From Rubrivivax sp. (GTDB taxonomy: Bacteria; Pseudomonadota; Gammaproteobacteria; Burkholderiales; Burkholderiaceae): 7,309 nucleotides of DNA. The stretch spans positions 1-7,309 of the forward strand of contig SEEY01000188.1 in NCBI GenBank assembly GCA_004211235.1, given 5' to 3'. Of the stretch, positions 1 to 7,309 are shown in pieces. A program made the position numbers and the translations under genes. The notes below the pieces were generated by a model that ran no database searches, was not told the origin of the DNA, and saw nothing but the letters and a program-made list of their open reading frames with translations. The first letter of the stretch is position 1. Every line of letters starts with the position of its first letter.

Positions 1-40
1 GCTGGAGCGCCAGCGGCTGATGCGCGACATGCACGACGGC
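1..40 (+). other. Inverted histidine-kinase H-box fragment at a junction
   Basis: Read on the + strand from position 2, this stretch encodes LERQRLMRDMHDG, the phospho-acceptor H-box of HisKA_3 (NarX/DesK-type) kinases. The adjoining gene from 41 onward is clearly coded on the minus strand, so the box is inverted relative to the kinase it should belong to. Its reverse complement matches 5452-5491 inside the second kinase gene at 39 of 40 bases, the only difference being at position 16 (5476 there). The match ends at the junction near 40/41. The minus-strand frame of HK1 stays open across these bases but reads only the antisense of an H-box (AVVHVAHQPLALQ). The sequence shows the inversion directly. 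Whether it is biological or an assembly or amplification chimera cannot be told from this window. Confidence 0.8.
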
Positions 41-1324
41 GCGCAGCTGCTCGTGCTGCAGGGCCAGCTCCGCCTCGCGCTCGGCCAGCCGCGCGGCCAG
101 CACGCGGCTGGCGGACTCGGCCTGCGCCACCGCGCCGGTGAAGCGGCGCAGCGCGGCGTACAGGAAGCTGCCCGTCAGCAGCAGCGCGCCGTAGGGCAGC
201 AGGTAGATGGTTTCCGGCGTGATGCGCTGCGCGGCCAGCAGCCAGTCGTGCACCGCGAAGCCGAGGATGACCCACAGCGCCGCGACGATGACGCGCAGCT
301 CACGGCGCCCGCCGCGCACGGCCAGCACGGTCAGCACGCCGGTGACGGTCAGCCCCGCCGCGAGGTTGGTGCCATGCTGCACCAGCAGCCCCAGCGGCAT
401 CAGGCCGGGGACGGTGATCAGCGTGCCGGCCAGCACGAACAGCGCAAGCCCACGCTCGAGGCGCGGCAGCCGGCGCGCGTCGAAGCGGAAGGCGAAGAGA
501 TAGGTCGCCAGCATCAACCAGGACACCGAGGCCGCCGTCATCCACCAGAACCACTCGGAGGCCGTGTCGGAGTTCGGCAGGTTGATGAACAGGTGCAGGT
601 TGCGCACCGTCCAGCCGATCGCTGCGCAGGCGAAGTAGAGATAGCCGCGCTCGTCCCGGCGGCCCAGCCAGACGATGAAGGACAGCAGCCCCAGCGCCAG
701 CATCGCGAGGCTGGCCGCGGCCGGCACCGTCTGCTGCAGCGCGCTGCGCAGCGCGTGCCGCTCGCGCAGCTCCACCTCCGGGCCCACCCACACGTGCGAC
801 AGCGCGTGGAAGCGCCCCTGGCGGCTGGGCGTGCCCAGCGCGAGCGTCAGCGTCTGGCCCGGCGCCATCGCATCGGGCGGCAGCGGAATCAGCAGCGGCC
901 GGTTCCATTGCTCCATGGCGCCGGCCTGGTTGTCGAACACCGGGCGCCAGCCCAGCGCCTCTAGCCGCCACAATTGCGCGGCCTGGGAGATGACGCGCGG
1001 CACGTAGACGACCAGTGGCGTGCCGGGCGCCAGGCCGGCCGGCACCGTCCACTGCAGCCGGTACCAGTGCATCGTGCGTTCGTTGCCCTGCTCGGTGGCG
1101 CGCACGACGTCGCGCCGTTGCAGGTCGGGCAAGGCCACCGGCTGCCACGCGCCGCCCTCCAGCGGCGGGCCGGCGTCGGCTGCGCTGAGCGGCACGACCA
1201 GATGGTCCGCCTGCTCGTAGCGATGCGCCAATCCTTCGCCCGCCTGCGCCGCCCCGCCTGCGGCCGCGAACATCAGCGCCCACAGCAGCACCGACAGCCA
1301 CCGCAGCACGCGCGGCTCAATCAC
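41..1324 (-). CDS. Sensor histidine kinase HK1, 7TM-DISM type, N-terminal part (kinase core missing)
   Basis: This is the sensor part of a membrane histidine kinase; about 428 native residues are present. Residues 1-28 look like a signal peptide (LSVLLWALMFAAAGGAAQA). Residues about 30-190 form a periplasmic beta-rich domain of the 7TMR-DISM type, with HWYRLQW near residue 88. About 197-390 holds seven hydrophobic segments, including SLAMLALGLLSFIVWL and LRVIVAALWVILGFAV. From about 395 an Ala/Glu/Arg-rich coiled coil (RVLAARLAEREAELALQHEQ) leads towards the expected HisKA_3 and ATPase domains, which are absent. The frame was picked because it alone gives a coherent membrane protein. GTG at 1324-1322 is the likely start: it overlaps the end of the response-regulator gene (GTGATTGA, 8-base overlap), which suggests translational coupling; GTG at 1309 is an alternative. 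The family senses ligands, often carbohydrate-like, but the ligand here is unknown. The gene breaks at 40/41 at the inverted H-box. Confidence 0.85.
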
Positions 1325-1988
1325 GCAGCAGCCCCATGCGGCGCGCCTCGTAGACGGCTTCGGTGCGCGAATGCACCTGCAGCTTGCGGTAGATGCGCTT
1401 CACGAAGGTGGTGACGGTGTGCCGCGACACCGCCAGCAGCGGCGCGATCTCCTCGTAGCTGTAGCCCTTGGCGCACAGCGCCAGCACCTCGCGCTCGCGC
1501 GGCGACAGCGTCGCGTCGCCCTCTGCGGTGCCGGCCGGGCCGGACGCGCTGCGCTGCGCCTGCGACCAGGCCGCCGAGCGGCGCAGCATCTGACGCGCGA
1601 TGACGGCGCTGATCGGGCTGCCGCCGGCCTTCAGCACACGCAGCTGCTCGACGATCTCGGCGGGCGACGCGTCTTTCAGCAGGTAGCCGGTGGCGCCGGC
1701 CTCGATGGCCGCCAGCACATGGGCCTCGTCGCCGAACACCGTGACCACCATGGCCTCGCAATCCGGCAGCGATCGCGCGGCCTCGGCAATCAGCGCGGTG
1801 CCGTCGCCATCGGGCAGGCCCAGGTCCACCAGCAGCACGTCGGGCCGGGTGTTGTGCAGCAGGTGCACGCCCGCGGCAAGGGTGGCCGCCTGGCCCACCA
1901 CCTGCATGTCTCCTGCCGCCTCCACCGCCGCCGCAAACGGCTGCAGCACGGTGGGGTCGTCGTCGACGATCAGCACGCGCAGTTTCAT
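1317..1988 (-). CDS. NarL/FixJ (LuxR-type) two-component response regulator
   Basis: A 223-residue cytoplasmic DNA-binding regulator of normal family length. The receiver domain (1 to about 120) has the acidic pocket D10/D11, phospho-acceptor D55 (VLLVDLGLP), switch residue T83 (MVVTVFGD) and K105 (GYLLKD). After a Gln/Ser/Ala/Gly linker, the LuxR-type HTH spans about 160-222: LSPREREVLALCAKGYSYEE, then recognition-helix residues VSRHTVTTFVKRIYRKL. ATG at 1988-1986 is chosen because MKLRVLIVDDD is the usual start of the fold; a longer reading from 2099 adds residues that do not belong to the family. No good Shine-Dalgarno precedes the ATG, and a possible -10 lies only 7 bases away, so the mRNA may be leaderless. 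HK1 follows with an 8-base overlap and is the likely partner kinase. NarL-type regulators bind short inverted repeats as dimers, and one lies just upstream (2031-2050), so autoregulation is likely. Confidence 0.95.
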   Translation of the reverse strand: MKLRVLIVDDDPTVLQPFAAAVEAAGDMQVVGQAATLAAGVHLLHNTRPDVLLVDLGLPDGDGTALIAEAARSLPDCEAMVVTVFGDEAHVLAAIEAGATGYLLKDASPAEIVEQLRVLKAGGSPISAVIARQMLRRSAAWSQAQRSASGPAGTAEGDATLSPREREVLALCAKGYSYEEIAPLLAVSRHTVTTFVKRIYRKLQVHSRTEAVYEARRMGLLRD

Positions 1989-1995
1989 GCGATCG

Positions 1996-2001
1996 AGTGT
2001 A
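1996..2001 (-). promoter_or_regulatory. Possible -10 box (TACACT) of the regulator-HK1 operon
   Basis: On the minus strand this reads TACACT, 4 of 6 to the sigma-70 -10 consensus, within AGTGTAGG (+ strand 1996-2003). The same eight bases occur at 6183-6190 in front of HK2, in both cases exactly 30 bp from the shared palindrome. No convincing -35 is seen at the right distance, which would fit an activator-dependent promoter. Only 7 bases separate this box from the ATG of the regulator. It could instead be a second protein-binding site. Confidence 0.4.
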
Positions 2002-2030
2002 GGGAGCAGGGCTCCACAGAGTTGGGGAAA

Positions 2031-2050
2031 CGTGCCGTGATTGCGGTACG
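2031..2050. promoter_or_regulatory. Operator-like inverted repeat, copy A
   Basis: The sequence is CGTGCCG, then TGATTG, then CGGTACG: two 7-base arms that pair at six of seven positions (the mismatch faces 2034 with 2047). It sits near the middle of the divergent promoter region, 30 bp from the leftward -10 candidate and 31 bp from the rightward one, so its centre would be about 50 bp upstream of both predicted transcription starts. Copy B at 6219-6236 keeps both six-base arms and the 6-base spacing. The size and symmetry suit a dimer of a NarL-type regulator, and such a regulator is encoded next door. That binding assignment is inference. Confidence 0.65.
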
Positions 2051-2076: not shown

Positions 2077-2086
2077 TTTCCAGAAT
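2077..2086 (+). promoter_or_regulatory. Possible -10 region of the PEP-CTERM gene cluster
   Basis: TTTCCAGAAT contains CAGAAT (2081-2086), 4 of 6 to the -10 consensus. The other divergent region has TTTCCATAGT at the matching place (6266-6275). No strong -35 is present. The predicted start of transcription would lie near 2093, giving a leader of about 20 bases with the GGAG ribosome site at 2103-2106. Confidence 0.35.
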
Positions 2087-2113: not shown

Positions 2114-2752
2114 ATGCGCAACCCCTTCGTGACACGAGCCGCCGCGGCACTCGCCATGGCCTGCACCGCAGGCGCTCACGCGGGCGCCATCGCCGACTTC
2201 GAGAGCGGCCTGCCGACCGGCTGGACGGCGGCGGGCAACGCCTGGGCGGTGGTCGCCGAGGCGACCGGCTCCGTGCACATCGGCCCCGCGCAAGGTGCCA
2301 GCTTCGCCGCGTCCGGCGCACCTGGCACGGCGAGCGAATCAGCCACCGGCACCCTCACGTCCGGGCCGCTGACGGCCAGTTTCGACACCCTCCAGTGGCA
2401 GGCCACCGGCTGGTCGGGGCCCGGGGGCAACGGGGCCAACCGGTTCGAGCTCCTGAACGCCAGCCAGATCGTCGTTGGCACGGTCGCCGCGCCGCTGAAC
2501 GACAACTGGTCGACCCGCAGCTTCAACCTGGCGGCGGCCGGATTCCATGCCGGCGACACCTTCTATTTCCGTGCCGTCGACAGCGATGCCAATACCGGCG
2601 GTGTCGGCTACGCATGGCTTGCCGTGGATGACGTCCGGTTCAGCGGCGCGCCTCTGCCGGTGCCCGAGCCTGGCGCTGCGGCGCTGTTCGCCGCGGGCCT
2701 CACCGTACTCGGCGTGCTGGCGCGCGGCCGCGCCGTGGCCGGTTACCGCTGA
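2114..2752 (+). CDS. PEP-CTERM sorted exported protein
   Basis: A 212-residue secreted protein. Residues 1-23 are a signal peptide (FVTRAAAALAMACTAGAHA). The body (about 25-180) is rich in Gly, Ala, Ser and Thr with alternating beta-like segments, ending in YAWLAVDDVRFSG, as in jelly-roll or carbohydrate-binding-like domains of exported proteins; no catalytic motif is seen. The C-terminus is a classical PEP-CTERM sorting tag: VPEPG at 183-187, a hydrophobic helix (AAALFAAGLTVLGVLA) and a short Arg-containing tail. In known systems such tags are processed by exosortase (EpsH family) and go with exopolysaccharide or biofilm matrix; no exosortase is in this window. ATG at 2114 is chosen because GGAG lies 7 bases ahead and the signal peptide begins there; a GTG at 2057 would add residues before it. 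It is divergent from the regulator gene and shares the operator at 2031-2050. Confidence 0.88.
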   Translation: MRNPFVTRAAAALAMACTAGAHAGAIADFESGLPTGWTAAGNAWAVVAEATGSVHIGPAQGASFAASGAPGTASESATGTLTSGPLTASFDTLQWQATGWSGPGGNGANRFELLNASQIVVGTVAAPLNDNWSTRSFNLAAAGFHAGDTFYFRAVDSDANTGGVGYAWLAVDDVRFSGAPLPVPEPGAAALFAAGLTVLGVLARGRAVAGYR

Positions 2753-2770
2753 CCACGGTGGGGTCGCCCC

Positions 2771-2980
2771 ATGCCACGCCGCACTTGCTGCTGGCTCGCC
2801 GCGCGTGTGCTGATGCTGTGCTGCGTCGCCTGGCTCGGCGTGCCGCCGACGTCGCCGCCGCCCCGCAGTGGCGCGACGGCCGCAGCCAACCTGCCCCGCA
2901 TCAGCATCTGGCCCGAAACGCCGCCCAAGGTCAGCGCCACCCGCTTTCGCCGCCGCCGCATGGCCTGGCAGAGCCCGTGA
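2771..2980 (+). CDS. Small hypothetical exported or membrane protein
   Basis: A possible 69-residue protein not recognised as any family. It has a basic start (MPRRT), a Cys-rich hydrophobic stretch at about 6-24 (CCWLAARVLMLCCVAWLG), a Pro-rich segment (VPPTSPPP), and an Arg-rich end (RFRRRRMAWQSP). There is no clear lipobox. Its codons end in G or C almost throughout, like the neighbours, and it fits between the PEP-CTERM gene (18 bases before) and the M61 gene (28 bases after) in one orientation. A G-rich GGTGGGG about 8 bases before the ATG could serve as a ribosome site. High GC makes chance open frames common here, and two other forward frames are open across part of this stretch, so this remains moderate. 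Confidence 0.5.
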   Translation: MPRRTCCWLAARVLMLCCVAWLGVPPTSPPPRSGATAAANLPRISIWPETPPKVSATRFRRRRMAWQSP

Positions 2981-2996
2981 CGGCCTGGCCGCCGAC

Positions 2997-3001
2997 AGGA
3001 G
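2997..3001 (+). promoter_or_regulatory. Shine-Dalgarno AGGAG that fixes the M61 start
   Basis: AGGAG lies 7 bases before the ATG at 3009, directly ahead of a good signal peptide. This rules out longer in-frame starts as far upstream as 2868, whose extra residues read as low-complexity sequence from an alternative frame of the small gene. Confidence 0.8.
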
Positions 3002-3008
3002 ATATCCG

Positions 3009-4913
3009 ATGAACCGATGGCTCACCCTCTTCGGCGCGCTGTGCGCCAGCTTCTGGCTCACCGCCGTCAACGCCTTTGCCGCATCCGATGACGACACACC
3101 ACGGCCCGCGATGACCGTGCGCGTCGACGCCTCGAACACCGCGCAATGGATCTTCCAGGTCCATGAAACCATTCCCGCCGAGTCCGGGCCGCTGCGGCTG
3201 CTCTACCCGCGCTGGTTGCCGGGCTTTCACGGACCGGCGGGCGACGTCGTGCAGCTGGCCGGCCTGACGGTGCGGGTCGGCGGCCAGCGGCTGCTGTGGA
3301 CGCGTGCGGCGGATGAACTGCACGGCTTCGACGTGCAGGTGCCAGAGGGCGCCCATGCCATCGACGTGCACTACCAGTGGCTGGGCCCGACCAAGGGCGC
3401 CCTGAGCGACAGCCTGCAGTCGCGCGACGCCCTGGCCCTGACCTGGCCGTCGCTGCTGCTCTATCCGTCCAACCGCCCGCTCGCCGAGATGGAAGTGGCA
3501 AGCCGCGTGAAGCTGCCGGTCGGCTGGTCCTGGGGCAGCGCGCTGCGGGCCTCGGCGGTTTCGACGCAAGGCGAAGGGTGGGTCGAGTTCCAGACCGAAA
3601 CGCTGGAGACGCTGCTGGACTCGCCCGTCTATGCCGGCGTGAACTACCGCCGTGTGGAACTGGACCCGCCTGGCACCGCACGGCCGGCCGCGCTGCATCT
3701 CTTTCGCACACGTGATGGCGGCACGGCGCCCAGCGACGAGCAGATCGACACGCACCGGCGCCTGCTTCAGCAGGCCGAGAAGCTGTTCGGCTTTCGGCCC
3801 TGGCGGCACTACGACCTGTTGCTGGCCGACGGCAAGGGCTTCGGCCACATCGCGCTGGAGCATCACGAGTCCAGCGAGAACAGCTACGACGGTGACTACT
3901 TCGCCGACTGGGCCGCCGCCAGCCGCTCGCGCGACGACCTGGCCCATGAGCTGACCCATGCCTGGAACGGCAAGTTCCGCCGGCCGCGCGGGCTGGAGCA
4001 GCTCGACCTCAACTCGCCCACGCGCAACGAGCTGCTGTGGGTCTACGAAGGCCTGACGCAGTACTGGGGCCAGGTGCTGGCCGTGCGCAGCGGGCTGGTG
4101 ACGGCCGAGCAGATGCGCCACGACCTGGCATTGACCGGCGCGCGCACCGCCGACCTGCCCGGCCGGCAATGGCGCGACTTGCAGGACACGACGAACACGC
4201 CGGCGCTGGCTTCGCACGGCACGCAGAAGTGGTGGGACTGGACGCTCGGCTATGACTACTACAACGACGCCGCGCTGCTGATCTGGCTGGATGCCGACAC
4301 GCTGATCCGCGAACGCAGCGGCGGCCAGCGCTCGCTGGACGACTTCGCGCGGCGCTTTTTTAACGGCCAGGACGGCAACCGCACGCCCAGCGTCTACGGC
4401 ATCGACGACGTCGTGGCAGCGTTGAACGCGGTGGAGCCGATGGACTGGCGCCGCTTCCTGCGCGCGCGGCTGGATCACCGCATGCCCACGACGACGCTCG
4501 ACGGCCTGGCGCGCAGCGGCTGGACGGTCGCCTTCGTCGACAAGCGCACGCCGCTGCAGCTGGCCTCGCTGAACGCGAAGAAGCCGCTGTTCTCGATGCG
4601 CTATTCGGCCGGGGTGAGCGTGGACGCCGAAGGCAGCGTCGTCGGGGTCAACTGGGCCTCGCCCGCTTTCAGCGCCGGGCTGGCACCGGACGACAAGCTG
4701 CTCGCCGTCAACGGCCGGGCCTTCACGCCCGAACGCGCGGAAGCGGCGCTGAACGACAACCGCAGTGGCGACAAGCCGCTGCAGCTGCTGATCCACCGCG
4801 ACGACGAGTTCCGCACCGTGGCGCTGGACGTGCGCACCGGGCCGCGCCACCCGGTGCTGCAGCGCGTGGAAGGCCGGCCCGATGTGCTGGCGGAGATCTT
4901 CAAGGCCCGCTAG
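3009..4913 (+). CDS. Secreted M61 family metallo-aminopeptidase with PDZ domain
   Basis: A 634-residue zinc peptidase of family M61 (glycyl aminopeptidase type), which in characterised members removes N-terminal Gly or Ala. Residues 1-24 are a signal peptide (LTLFGALCASFWLTAVNAFA), so it acts in the periplasm or outside. About 35-220 is the M61 N-terminal beta domain (LLYPRWLPGFHGP). The catalytic domain carries LEHHES at 283-288, matching the family GLEH motif, then the zinc site HELTH at 313-317 (H313, E314, H317) and E347 in YEGLTQYWG as the likely third ligand. A PDZ domain follows at about 535-615 (GVNWASPAFSAGLAPDDKLL, then AVNGR). All key residues are present and the length is normal. 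It lies last in a likely operon with the PEP-CTERM gene, which hints at processing of exported proteins or peptides; that is inference. Its last 14 bases overlap the end of HK2. Confidence 0.95.
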   Translation: MNRWLTLFGALCASFWLTAVNAFAASDDDTPRPAMTVRVDASNTAQWIFQVHETIPAESGPLRLLYPRWLPGFHGPAGDVVQLAGLTVRVGGQRLLWTRAADELHGFDVQVPEGAHAIDVHYQWLGPTKGALSDSLQSRDALALTWPSLLLYPSNRPLAEMEVASRVKLPVGWSWGSALRASAVSTQGEGWVEFQTETLETLLDSPVYAGVNYRRVELDPPGTARPAALHLFRTRDGGTAPSDEQIDTHRRLLQQAEKLFGFRPWRHYDLLLADGKGFGHIALEHHESSENSYDGDYFADWAAASRSRDDLAHELTHAWNGKFRRPRGLEQLDLNSPTRNELLWVYEGLTQYWGQVLAVRSGLVTAEQMRHDLALTGARTADLPGRQWRDLQDTTNTPALASHGTQKWWDWTLGYDYYNDAALLIWLDADTLIRERSGGQRSLDDFARRFFNGQDGNRTPSVYGIDDVVAALNAVEPMDWRRFLRARLDHRMPTTTLDGLARSGWTVAFVDKRTPLQLASLNAKKPLFSMRYSAGVSVDAEGSVVGVNWASPAFSAGLAPDDKLLAVNGRAFTPERAEAALNDNRSGDKPLQLLIHRDDEFRTVALDVRTGPRHPVLQRVEGRPDVLAEIFKAR

Positions 4914-6162
4914 CGCCCGACGCCTGCCGCAACGGCAGCCGCAGCTTCACCCGGGTGCCCTGCCCCGGCGCGCTGTGCCAGTGCAGCGCCGCGCCCAGCG
5001 CCTGCGCGCGCTGGCGCATGCTGGTCAGGCCCTGGCCGCTCGCGGCGGACGCGATGTCGAATCCGCAGCCGTCGTCCTGGATGCACACCTCCAGCGCATC
5101 GCCCGCTGCCTGCGCCGACAGGCTGAGCGTGTGCGCCTGGGCATGCTTGATGACGTTGGTCATCGCCTCCTGGATCAACCGCAGCACCTGCAACGCCAGC
5201 GCCGGCTCTAGCCAGGGCAGCGGCGGCATGTCGGCCATGGCCCATTCCAGCTTCAGGCCGGCGCCGTCCAGGCGATGGCCCACGCGCGTGCGCAGCGTCG
5301 CCAGCAGCGTGGCCAGGTCGTGCTCCAGAGGTTCCAGCGAGTCGATGGTCAGCCGAAGGTCTTCGATGGCGCTGCGCAGCAGTTCGGCCAGCGCCGCACC
5401 GCCGACGCCGCTCTCGGCCATGCGCAGCAGCGCGATGAGGTGCGAACCGACGCCGTCGTGCATGTCGCGCATCAGGCGCTGGCGCTCCAGCAGCAGCGCG
5501 TGCTCCCGCTCGGTCTCGTGCATGCGCTGCTGCTGCAGCCGCAGGGCTTCACCCAGCGCCTCGGCCTCGCGGCGGCTCACCAGCGCATCGCGGTAGGCCA
5601 CCTGCAACCGGTAGCCATGCGCAGCCACGCAGACGAACAAGAGACCACAGCCAAGCGCGTGCACGCCGTAGCCCGGGTGCATGGCCACGGCCAGGGTGGA
5701 CAGCGCCGTGATCGGCACCGCCAGCACCAGCCCCATGCGCGGCGTGGCCGGGGCATAGGTGCTGGCAAACAGCACGCTGACGTTGAAGGCACAGGCCAGC
5801 AGCATCGGCAGTTGGGGCGACGGCCCCTGCGACAGCATCAACGGCGTCAGGCCCCAGGCCGTGCTGCTCACCGCGATGCTGACGTGCAGCCACGGCAACC
5901 AGCGCGGCAGCACGGCCGCCAGGTCCTGCCGGCCCGCCAGCCGCCAGCCGATCCAGGCCTGGCCGAGGCAACCGACGTAAGCCGTCGCCGCCCACGCCAG
6001 CCGCCAGCCCAGCGGCGCAAAGTCCTCCCACGCCAGCACCATGCCGGCGATGAGCACGGCCAGCGCGGTCATGGTGCCGCGCAGGTGCGTGAGGAACAGG
6101 CGCATCGAGTCGAGCTCCACGCGCTGGCGCAACTGCTCCGTGTCCGGCACCACGTCGGTCAT
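4900..6162 (-). CDS. Sensor histidine kinase HK2, HisKA_3 (NarL-partner) class
   Basis: A complete 420-residue membrane kinase. Six hydrophobic segments lie at about 30-48, 52-74, 88-110, 119-138, 143-161 and 165-186, forming an integral-membrane sensor with little periplasmic sequence; I do not recognise the sensor family. A coiled coil (about 190-228) leads to the H-box LERQRLMRDMHDGVG with phospho-acceptor H235. The ATPase domain shows the N-box EAMTNVIKHA (N336), the G1 motif DDGCGFD (363-369) and the G2 motif GQGLTSMRQRA (from 377). Kinases of this class phosphorylate NarL/LuxR-type regulators. ATG at 6162-6160 is chosen because AGGAGG lies 8 bases ahead; a longer frame reaching 6405 would run into the divergent gene. 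No regulator gene adjoins it, so the nearby NarL-type regulator at 1317-1988 is a candidate partner (inference). Its stop overlaps the M61 gene by 14 bases, tail to tail. Confidence 0.95.
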   Translation of the reverse strand: MTDVVPDTEQLRQRVELDSMRLFLTHLRGTMTALAVLIAGMVLAWEDFAPLGWRLAWAATAYVGCLGQAWIGWRLAGRQDLAAVLPRWLPWLHVSIAVSSTAWGLTPLMLSQGPSPQLPMLLACAFNVSVLFASTYAPATPRMGLVLAVPITALSTLAVAMHPGYGVHALGCGLLFVCVAAHGYRLQVAYRDALVSRREAEALGEALRLQQQRMHETEREHALLLERQRLMRDMHDGVGSHLIALLRMAESGVGGAALAELLRSAIEDLRLTIDSLEPLEHDLATLLATLRTRVGHRLDGAGLKLEWAMADMPPLPWLEPALALQVLRLIQEAMTNVIKHAQAHTLSLSAQAAGDALEVCIQDDGCGFDIASAASGQGLTSMRQRAQALGAALHWHSAPGQGTRVKLRLPLRQASGASGP

Positions 6163-6170
6163 GCAGCCAG

Positions 6171-6176
6171 CCTCCT
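6171..6176 (-). promoter_or_regulatory. Strong Shine-Dalgarno (AGGAGG) of HK2
   Basis: The minus strand reads AGGAGG, then 8 bases, then the ATG at 6162. It decides the HK2 start. If the TACACT at 6183-6188 is the -10, transcription would begin almost on this site, giving a very short leader. Confidence 0.8.
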
Positions 6177-6182
6177 GGCGCC

Positions 6183-6188
6183 AGTGTA
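6183..6188 (-). promoter_or_regulatory. Possible -10 box (TACACT) of HK2
   Basis: Identical to the box before the response regulator (1996-2001) and at the same 30-bp distance from the shared palindrome. The 30 bases between box and palindrome match the other copy at 17 positions, suggesting the two regions are diverged duplicates. No clear -35 is seen. Confidence 0.4.
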
Positions 6189-6218
6189 GGAACGCCGTCT
6201 CATCAGAAGGGAGGAGAC

Positions 6219-6236
6219 GTGCCGCATTCGCGGTAC
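6219..6236. promoter_or_regulatory. Operator-like inverted repeat, copy B
   Basis: GTGCCG, CATTCG, CGGTAC: the same arms and the same 6-base gap as copy A, and preceded by the same AC. Five of six arm positions pair, and one more pair (6225 with 6230) extends the arms inward. The gap sequence differs from copy A, as expected when only the arms are contacted by protein. It lies between HK2 and the repeat-protein gene, 65 bases before the latter's ATG (64 in copy A). Confidence 0.65.
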
Positions 6237-6265
6237 AGCCCCCCACACACAGGGACGGTGGCGGC

Positions 6266-6275
6266 TTTCCATAGT
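6266..6275 (+). promoter_or_regulatory. Possible -10 region of the repeat-protein gene
   Basis: TTTCCATAGT contains CATAGT (6270-6275), 4 of 6 to the -10 consensus, and matches TTTCCAGAAT in front of the PEP-CTERM gene. A shared CCCAAC follows in both (2095-2100 and 6280-6285). No convincing -35 is present. Confidence 0.35.
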
Positions 6276-6301
6276 CGCACCCAACGAACCTGGAGAACCT
6301 G

Positions 6302-7309
6302 ATGCGCCAGCCCTCTTTCCGACGCCTCGCTGCCTGCACCGTCGGCCTGACCCTCACGGGGCTCACCGCCGCGCCGGCGCTGGCGCTGAGTTGCGACAAG
6401 GCCAACTACATCCTGCCGGCGCCGAACCCGGTCGTGCAGCACATCAGCAAGCTGCTGACCAACAACAACCCGAACGGCTGCCAGGACGGCTTCGCCCTCC
6501 AGATCGATGCCAGCGGCCACCTGATCAACCAGGCCGGCTTCACGCTGCTGCCGGGCCTGCTCGGCGTCAATGGCCGAGGTGGCCTGTCGAGCTACGGCGC
6601 GCTGACCAATGCGGCCAGCGGCACGCTCGACAGCTACGCGGACATCCACAACAACATCAACGCGGTGCTCACCAACGAAGGCGTGTTCACCAACAACGCG
6701 CTGCTCGTCAACGCAGGCTACGTCGTCAACAACGGCAAGCTGTTCAACAAGGGCATGCTGTCGATGACCGGCATCGGCGGCAGCTTCGAGAACCATGGCC
6801 AGCTGGACAACGCGGCGGGTGCCACGCTGGAACTGACGAGTCTGTTTCAGGTGATCGACTGGGCGGGCGGCACGGTCAACAACGCCGGCACCCTGCGTGT
6901 GAGCTACCTGGACATCGGCGACGCCTCCGGTCAAAGCAGCCCCTACAGCAGCTTCAACCTGATGGCGGGCAGCCGGCTCGAGACCGGCGACCTGGTGATC
7001 CGCCAGGGCGCGACCCAGGGCAACGCCGGCACGCTCCGCAACACGGGCGACATGGGTGTCTACGGCACGCTGGTCAACGACGGCGACATCCAGACGGGTT
7101 CGCTGACGCTCGACTACGCGGGCTTCGGCCTCGCCATCCTGAACAACCGCACCACGCTGACCCTCGGCACCGCCGGCGGCGTCTGGCCCGTCGGCGCCGC
7201 CACGTCGCTGACGTCCACGAACAGCGGCCAGCTGACGATCAAGGCCAACGGACTGCTGGTGAATGGCGGCGTCAACCCCTTCGGCGTGCACAACGGCCAC
7301 CTGCAGAAC
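6302..7309 (+). CDS. Secreted Asn/Gly-rich repeat protein, beta-solenoid-like (3' end outside the window)
   Basis: The first 336 residues of an exported protein; the frame is open to the window edge. A GGAG at 6292-6295, 6 bases before the ATG, and a clear signal peptide (LAACTVGLTLTGLTAAPALA, cleavage after about residue 28) fix the start. The mature part begins with a short region containing C31 and C60, which could form a disulfide. From about residue 100 it becomes repetitive: hydrophobic-x-Asn-x-Gly units such as LTNEG, LVNAG, LFNKG, FENHG, LRNTG and LVNDG, typical of parallel beta-helix adhesins and other surface proteins. No enzyme motif is seen. A PEP-CTERM tag, autotransporter barrel or other anchor may lie beyond the edge; this cannot be seen. 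It is divergent from HK2 and shares the palindrome at 6219-6236, so it is probably in the same regulon as the PEP-CTERM gene. Confidence 0.88.
   Translation, partial: MRQPSFRRLAACTVGLTLTGLTAAPALALSCDKANYILPAPNPVVQHISKLLTNNNPNGCQDGFALQIDASGHLINQAGFTLLPGLLGVNGRGGLSSYGALTNAASGTLDSYADIHNNINAVLTNEGVFTNNALLVNAGYVVNNGKLFNKGMLSMTGIGGSFENHGQLDNAAGATLELTSLFQVIDWAGGTVNNAGTLRVSYLDIGDASGQSSPYSSFNLMAGSRLETGDLVIRQGATQGNAGTLRNTGDMGVYGTLVNDGDIQTGSLTLDYAGFGLAILNNRTTLTLGTAGGVWPVGAATSLTSTNSGQLTIKANGLLVNGGVNPFGVHNGHLQN
6668..6757 (+). repeat. Five tandem hexapeptide units in the repeat protein
   Basis: Residues 123-152 fall into five units of six residues: LTNEGV, FTNNAL, LVNAGY, VVNNGK, LFNKGM. Asn is at the third place of every unit (N125, N131, N137, N143, N149), a hydrophobic residue at the first, and Gly or Ala at the fifth. 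The repetition is at protein level; the DNA copies are diverged. Looser units continue to the end of the window. Confidence 0.75.

Follow-up and report, generated by a model that had tools for sequence, protein, structure and literature searches.

Introduction

The Escherichia coli regulator NarL combines a receiver with a LuxR/GerE domain and is described as recognising inverted half-sites of 7 bases with a gap of 2 bp (PMC4549865, PMC7419079). We refer to this as the 7-2-7 layout. An engineered narG test site reads TACCCCT-AA-AGGGGTA (PMC4549865). At the ogt promoter, NarL is described as activating from positions -44.5, -67.5 and -77.5 (PMC7419079). PEP-CTERM proteins form a large group and, in the literature searched, their regulation is ascribed to a system of the sigma-54 PrsK/PrsR type. 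This pair was predicted to regulate PEP-CTERM genes (PMC1569441, PMC9850573). In Desulfovibrio, following the 2006 prediction, five predicted PEP-CTERM targets of the regulator DVUA0057 were enriched by DAP-chip (PMC3333781). The 2006 description also places many PEP-CTERM upstream regions outside the PrsK/PrsR class, with further regulators and motifs remaining (PMC1569441). In Rubrivivax gelatinosus, the EmbRS and BmfRS systems have LuxR-type regulators linked to extracellular matrix and biofilm (PMC3684757).

Here, we analyse 7,309 nt of Rubrivivax sp. DNA (the window), in which one palindrome occurs twice, inside each of two divergent gene pairs, the first of which includes a response regulator gene. 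An initial annotation had proposed that a single regulator controls itself, a second kinase and two exported-protein units through two-way promoters at these palindromes. Like NarL, as described, the window regulator has receiver and LuxR/GerE domains; the 7-base half-sites are inverted with a 2 bp gap, and the activation positions, here predicted, are comparable. The half-site is TNCCGYR, against the published TACCCCT. Several half-site bases differ, as do the kinases (a 7TMR-DISM HK1 and HK2) and the small local regulon, and there is no evidence of nitrate control. Like the described PrsK/PrsR pair, the locus combines a two-component system and a candidate DNA motif of its own, here before PEP-CTERM-type genes. 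However, PrsR is described with a domain for sigma-54 interaction and DNA binding of Fis type (PMC1569441), whereas the window regulator is of NarL/FixJ type with putative -10-type promoters. Profile searches found no sigma-54 interaction domain in the window regulator and identity with PrsK/PrsR was rejected. EmbRS and BmfRS, compared by description, share LuxR-type regulators, membrane-spanning kinases (BmfS is of the 7TM receptor type) and their occurrence in Burkholderiales (PMC3684757). Unlike the arrangement here, bmfR follows bmfS, next to phoH and ybeY; the available text of PMC3684757 describes no palindrome or PEP-CTERM target for either system. Among the literature matches listed for PEP-CTERM or exosortase with regulator families (titles and starts of abstracts), none links a NarL-type regulator to PEP-CTERM proteins. 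The kind of system and its parts are familiar; a NarL-type switch for PEP-CTERM-type or other secreted cargo was not seen in the literature searched.

Results

Two palindromes between regulatory genes and genes for exported-type proteins

The regulator gene (1317..1988, minus strand) encodes a NarL/FixJ-type protein with a receiver domain (Response_reg PF00072, 6.3e-21) and a LuxR/GerE helix-turn-helix (GerE PF00196, 6.4e-18), both above cut-offs. VraR and NarL are among its best solved relatives, and it is ~89-90% identical to a regulator of Roseateles cellulosilyticus P8 (R. cellulosilyticus; locus L001). Beside it is HK1 (2..1324, minus strand), a sensor kinase of 7TMR-DISM type with its catalytic half lost at the contig end. 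The L001 counterpart (8659-10560, 633 aa) is 67% identical over 395 aa. Contig bases 1-41 are the reverse of the HK2 H-box region (5451-5491) at 97.6% identity. On the strand that is wrong for HK1, they read LERQRLMRDMHDG. Therefore, the HK1 reading ends in a false tail, and this stretch is probably an assembly artefact at a repeat common to both kinases.

Facing the regulator, on the plus strand, is a gene for an exported protein with a PEP-CTERM-type tail, LPVPEPGAAALFAAGLTVLGVLARGRA (2114..2752). The VPEP tail is visible in the sequence; the TIGR02595 score, 15.2 bits, is slightly below the cut-off of 16. Besides itself, the protein has seven relatives at E below 0.001, one of which (P0124) carries PF07589. 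Six were inspected; the tail is VPEP in two and APEP in two others. Downstream of 2114..2752, in the same orientation and possibly in the same transcript, is a gene for an M61 family peptidase with a weak PDZ match (3009..4913). The second divergent pair consists of sensor kinase HK2 (4900..6162, minus strand; HATPase_c, H-box RQRLMRDMHDGVGSHL) and a repeat-rich exported protein (6302..7309, plus strand) cut by the contig end. The latter is exported-looking, with a signal-like N-terminus by eye and Asn/Gly-rich repeats. Among 7995 scored candidates the truncated query matched only itself; proteins of 0.55 to 1.75 times the query length were considered, so that long relatives could be missed. 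The left-hand genes are indeed regulators (response regulator and HK1; HK2) and the right-hand genes encode exported-type proteins, as judged at copy A by a profile score slightly below cut-off and at copy B by eye.

The gapped word ACGTGCCG-N6-CGGTAC occurs just twice in the window, at 2030-2049 (ACGTGCCGTGATTGCGGTAC) and 6217-6236 (ACGTGCCGCATTCGCGGTAC). Direct inspection confirmed that both copies are exact at the positions first reported and that their 14 fixed bases are identical. Both have an 18-bp core of the form GTNCCG-N6-CGGNAC, an imperfect palindrome. Putative operator A (2032..2049) is GTGCCGTGATTGCGGTAC, with the 7-2-7 reading TACCGCA-AT-CACGGCA on the minus strand. Putative operator B (6219..6236), between HK2 and the copy-B exported gene, is GTGCCGCATTCGCGGTAC. 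When both strands were searched, GTGCCG-N6-CGGTAC had 2 matches in the window, with 0.00 expected from 200 dinucleotide shuffles. Similarly, only 3 of 20,000 mononucleotide shuffles gave an identical 14-base gapped word common to both divergent intergenic stretches. With 3 mismatches allowed, the pattern was no commoner than chance (25 matches, 19 expected) and, therefore, only the close form is meaningful. No Rfam families were found in the window and no terminators were found beside either copy.

The site is conserved before related regulators

We collected relatives of the regulator at several depths. The genome collection gave 13 loci, with L001-L004 matching at at least 40% over nearly the whole query. 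Matches were found in 19 of 20 genomes from the genus of R. cellulosilyticus (1e-55), 10 of 399 from its family (1e-65) and 3 of 399 from its order (1e-67). From the order of the Methylococcaceae MAG, 4 of 151 genomes matched (1e-60) and, with another query, 4 of 311 (1e-70). Within the 20 genomes of the genus, only R. cellulosilyticus has a regulator at ~90% identity, the next best being 58%. The plasmid collection gave one relative only (45%). Each regulator was scored by the best palindrome in the 300 bp upstream, with 300 shuffles per locus.

The palindrome lies upstream of a related NarL/FixJ-type regulator in seven other genomes, with perfect arms in six and 9/10 in one. The loci are L001, L002 (Aquabacterium MAG), L003 (Methylococcaceae MAG), L060, and L094-L096 from the order of L003 (Methylococcales). 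These genomes belong to Burkholderiales and Methylococcales, and the lowest identity among their regulators is about 56%. In the window, L001, L002, L003, L094, L095 and L096 all 10 arm bases match, and 0 of 300 shuffles for each locus did as well. In L060, the score is 9/10 before the regulator (0.053 of shuffles as good) and 10/10 before a PEP-CTERM-type gene. The L003 operator is 179 bp from the matched regulator start, which is itself unsure. The comparison of orthologous loci put forward in the initial annotation thus finds the site upstream of related regulators and also of kinase 2 in R. cellulosilyticus, where the counterpart of operator B is at 6612-6629. When the divergent regions of L094 and L095, which are sister loci, were compared, the operator fell within the longest stretch of identity (24 nt), ahead of one of 18 nt.

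Within 300 bp upstream, the remaining 29 relatives scored (22 paralogs, five relatives with Met in the recognition helix and two others) have at most 8/10 arms, a score reached by 0.27 to 1.0 of shuffles. Within that distance the operator was found in 0 of the 22 paralogs, which are 52-53% identical, and in 0 of the 5 Met-type relatives. At 58-62% identity there are seven relatives without the site upstream. L048 has a degenerate 8/10 match at the same distance as in L060, which shuffles reach (0.303). For L061 and L065, where the upstream region could not be scored, the sole match of at least 9/10 in each 20-kb locus is over 7 kb from the regulator. L022, L042 and L043, left out of scoring because the regulator start was not parsed, have no match of at least 9/10 in 3.6 kb.

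The grouping of loci as 'with' or 'without' followed the discovery of the site, and genomes that are related do not count as independent. With this grouping, the eight operator-bearing regulators need three label changes on a tree with 22 regulators, compared with a shuffled mean of 6.7; 0 of 500 shuffles were as low. They do not form one clean clade. The pattern is consistent with an old site that some lines have lost or changed, and does not demonstrate a single origin. The recognition-helix position after 'TV' or 'TI' is Thr, Glu or Gly in regulators with the site. It is Met in those without, except in the more distant L044 (Val) and L004 (Arg). This position would correspond to that of NarL Lys188, a base-contacting residue. 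The correlation is a lead only.

Two observations concern Met-type loci. At the contig edge of L093, which was counted without the site, GTCCCGCATTTAGGGGAC (159-176) has 9/10 arms and follows the kinase gene directly, where L060 has its PEP-CTERM operator. Two more 9/10 matches occur in the same 8.2 kb and, therefore, chance is likely. About 60 bp upstream of the L046 regulator is a different palindrome, GTGGGG-TCTG-CCCCAC, noticed by eye, which is perhaps the Met-type group's own operator.

All sites fit a 7-2-7 layout

We aligned 11 sites from eight loci (the window, L001, L002, L003, L060, L094, L095 and L096). The common frame is G-TNCCG(N2)-WW-(N2)CGGNA-C; the site before the L060 regulator ends in T. 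All 11 fit two inverted 7-base half-sites 2 bp apart. Such operators are not found for every member of the NarL/FixJ family. Half-site positions 1, 3, 4 and 5 are T, C, C and G in 22 of 22 half-sites, which is partly the search pattern's own demand. C or T occupies position 6 in 20 of 22, and A or G occupies position 7 in 16 of 22. Between the half-sites, both central bases are A or T in all 11 sites. Hence, the six-base core does differ between the window copies, as first noted, but it is constrained over the 11 sites rather than wholly free. In L094-L096, the third base of each arm has changed symmetrically, giving GTCCCG...CGGGAC. The palindromes are imperfect, with 5 to 8 of 9 pairs matching. 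Other 18-mers in the copy-B intergenic region of the window equal the operator there, with 6/9 pairs, and, therefore, symmetry alone is not the evidence.

Predicted promoters flank the window sites at similar distances

The left-hand box, AGTGTAGG, occurs in the window at 1996-2003 and 6183-6190 only. On the minus strand it reads CCTACACT and contains TACACT. The right-hand box, TTTCCA, lies between palindrome and start codon as described, at 2077-2082 and 6266-6271 and nowhere else in the window. The palindromes end 64 and 65 nt ahead of the right-hand ATGs (2114 and 6302), again as described. The reported left-hand spacing of 30 bp needs rewording. Between the boxes as first written there are 26 nt; 30 bp separate the TACACT hexamer (minus strand, 1996-2001 and 6183-6188) from the 18-bp core, identically in both copies.

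TACACT is the putative -10 element for the regulator (1996..2001, minus strand) and for kinase 2 (6183..6188, minus strand). Operator positions were computed by counting the hexamer as -12 to -7, so that all starts are predictions. The operator would be centred at ~-51.5 in both promoters, and the regulator transcript would be leaderless, starting ~1 nt before the ATG. To the right, the candidates are weak hexamers. CAGAAT (2081..2086, plus strand), before the PEP-CTERM-like gene, overlaps the TTTCCA box and would place the operator at ~-52.5; CATAGT (6270..6275, plus strand), before the copy-B exported gene, would place it at ~-54.5. In both copies, the operator is nearly mid-way between the left and right -10 candidates, and with the predicted starts neither transcript would include the palindrome. 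No -35 element was found for the right-hand promoters of copies A and B, and no full sigma-70 promoter beside either operator copy. This is as expected if an activator is needed.

The predicted operator centre is ~-51.5 in both L001 promoters, and the operator-to-TACACT spacing is identical in four promoters of two species. Elsewhere, the centre is predicted at -49.5 (L060), -72.5 (L094 and L095), -74.5 (L096) and -79.5 (L002). A TANACT- or TAAAAT-like hexamer ends 6-8 nt before the regulator ATG in seven of eight operator loci (not L003). The same class of hexamer precedes the ATG in 4 of 5 scored Met-type relatives and 0 of 22 paralogs. Transcripts of these hexamer-bearing regulators would start at or beside the ATG. 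Seemingly leaderless genes are those at L001:8001 and 6673 (regulator and HK2), L094:8317, L060:10065 and window:1988.

The promoter pattern is rare in genomes

The pattern GTNCCG-N6-CGGNAC-N28-CCTACACT has exactly two matches without mismatch in the 6.3 Mb of R. cellulosilyticus. One precedes the regulator and the other precedes HK2; the closest match after these has 2 mismatches. With up to 3 mismatches there are 6 matches, compared with 11 for the control. Across 399 family genomes, up to 1 mismatch, we found those two and one more, against 5 reversed-control matches.

As a genome-wide regulon finder the bare palindrome was rejected. It gave fewer matches than reversed controls, and its matches were mostly inside ORFs. 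In R. cellulosilyticus, GTRCCG-N6-CGGYAC, a form that misses both GTCCCG sites of this genome, has 6 sites (16 in the reversed control). Five are inside ORFs and the sixth overlaps a predicted ORF start. GTNCCG-N6-CGGNAC has 4, 8 and 8 sites in genomes G415, G012 and G414 (controls 61, 56 and 36), and GTNCCGYNNNNRCGGNAC has 4, 2 and 2 in G868, G888 and G890 (controls 10, 5 and 5). Excluding the six studied-locus sites, the six relative genomes hold 22 bare matches. Of 20 examined, 17 are inside ORFs, as picked by length and third-base GC (two are short: L072, 75 aa, and L106, 101 aa). The other three (L069, L079 and L083) are outside. Elsewhere the bare palindrome is thus rare and mostly coding and, therefore, the regulon looks local; in R. 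cellulosilyticus, this test covers the left-type promoter. Together with the two exact R. cellulosilyticus promoters, these counts show that the site is not randomly frequent.

One match outside ORFs, L083:8524-8541 (GTGCCGGAATCACGGTAC, genome G414), overlaps a gene end and lies 77 bp before a 513-aa minus-strand ORF. It is possibly a second target.

Exported proteins face the site in several lineages

Exported proteins with PEP-CTERM-type tails face or follow the site in four of seven relatives (L060, L094, L095 and L096). In L094 and L095 they have VPVP/VPIP tails and are divergent from the regulator. The L096 protein has 761 aa and a tail of VPLPA type (17.2 bits, cut-off 25.35). The Methylococcales trio thus keeps such proteins opposite the site, with the other two regulators 92% and 72% identical to that of L094. 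In L060, two VPEP-tailed proteins (15.4 and 13.4 bits, cut-off 16) are encoded downstream of the regulator and an HK2-type kinase; the first gene is preceded, after the kinase gene, by the 10/10 site at 201 bp. Only the L095 protein at 9244-10314 passes TIGR02595 (19.1, cut-off 16), the others being below cut-offs. The L095 product of 10400-11305 matched no sorting model. Exosortase (PF09721) is above cut-off in 7 of 7 operator-bearing relative genomes, compared with 1 of 14 control genomes. PrsR is above cut-off elsewhere in 6 of the 7 relative genomes.

Other loci carry different genes. In L002, the regulator faces a C39-peptidase ABC exporter, HlyD and short peptides. The short peptide genes (5978-6391, minus strand, with 2492-5987), one with GG near its start, lie beside the exporter and HlyD, and this looks like a bacteriocin-type export unit. 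In L003, a 1361-aa RHS/YD-repeat protein (3612-7697, minus strand) is opposite the regulator across the operator. In L001, no exported gene is opposite the site, and the gene upstream has the orientation of HK2. Because R. cellulosilyticus has the site at both regulatory genes without a facing exported gene, exported-protein control is not universal. Hence, the initial proposal of one-regulator two-way control agrees with the sites at regulators and kinase 2 and with the exported genes of four relatives, but does not extend to every locus.

Two kinases are alike in the phosphotransfer region

In L001, HK1 and HK2 align over 265 C-terminal residues at 63% identity; the reverse search gave 54% over 352. 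Window HK2 is 68% identical to L001 HK1 over 253 aa of the C-terminal part, and the H-box regions are almost the same. HK1 (633 aa in L001) has a long N-terminal part with no counterpart in HK2 (420 aa). The kinase beside the regulator is of HK1 type in L002 and L003 and of HK2 type in L060 and L094-L096; both are present in the window and L001. The closely similar phosphotransfer parts, and the presence of both kinases, suggest two inputs to one regulator. Hence, HK1 and HK2 probably both feed it.

Discussion

The comparisons support a real, conserved candidate operator and its link to the adjacent regulator. We consider it likely that the locus is a self-controlled two-component module, in which the regulator activates two-way promoters for itself, the second kinase and local exported cargo. 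The NarL/FixJ-type response regulator next to the palindrome would use it as its operator and is the probable ligand of copies A and B. A phosphorylated dimer would bind one 7-2-7 palindrome and recruit RNA polymerase to weak, -35-less promoters ~50 bp away on each side. Leftwards, copy A would drive the regulator gene and HK1; rightwards, it would drive the PEP-CTERM-type exported protein with the M61 peptidase behind. Copy B would drive HK2 leftwards and the repeat-rich exported protein rightwards. HK1 and HK2, with nearly the same phosphotransfer region, would both feed their signal to the single regulator, and the regulon would be small and local.

A different role for the same regulator is unlikely. 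It might bind mainly for negative autoregulation, the right-hand exported genes being bystanders that share intergenic space. The R. cellulosilyticus sites, which precede the regulator and HK2 but face no exported gene, would suit this, as would the fixed 28-bp spacing to CCTACACT on the regulator side and the weak right-hand -10 elements. However, the perfect L060 site precedes a PEP-CTERM-type gene, after the kinase, rather than the regulator. Moreover, the three Methylococcales loci keep tailed exported proteins opposite the site although two of their regulators are only 92% and 72% identical to that of L094, and both window operators are nearly mid-way between the two -10 candidates.

It is quite improbable that a different DNA-binding protein controls the whole locus through the palindrome, with the neighbouring regulator not its ligand. 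The regulator is tied to the site by sequence comparison, and seven close relatives (58-62% identity) have no site upstream. Against this, the site accompanies the regulator across Burkholderiales and Methylococcales, resembles the 7-2-7 shape of the NarL family and, in 17 of the 20 other matches examined, lies in coding sequence. The recognition-helix residue also differs between regulators with the site (Thr, Glu or Gly) and without it (Met, except for Val in L044 and Arg in L004). That the palindrome is a functionless short duplication, a chance match or an RNA hairpin is hardly credible. Bare palindromes with 10 to 12 fixed bases do occur 2 to 8 times per genome, but none was expected in the window, and the TACACT spacing is the same in all four promoters of the two species. 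Neither an Rfam family nor a terminator was found, and the predicted starts would leave the palindrome untranscribed. Chance or repeat is already disfavoured because the site is conserved at 56-59% regulator identity. We therefore return to the self-controlled module as the preferred reading.

The operator points to a candidate regulator together with a binding site and targets nearby. Hence, the question of control is directly testable with one protein and two DNA fragments. The operator-28-CCTACACT arrangement is also a sequence tag that picks the promoter out of a whole genome, as in R. cellulosilyticus. Tentatively, we suggest that the regulator, kinase or kinases and palindrome may form a portable self-controlled switch, with exchangeable, lineage-specific secreted cargo opposite the sensor-regulator genes. 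If so, the cargo would be PEP-CTERM-type proteins, a peptide with its C39 exporter or an RHS protein. Many hosts would then control PEP-CTERM proteins by a further route, through ordinary -10 promoters, in addition to the sigma-54 PrsK/PrsR system.
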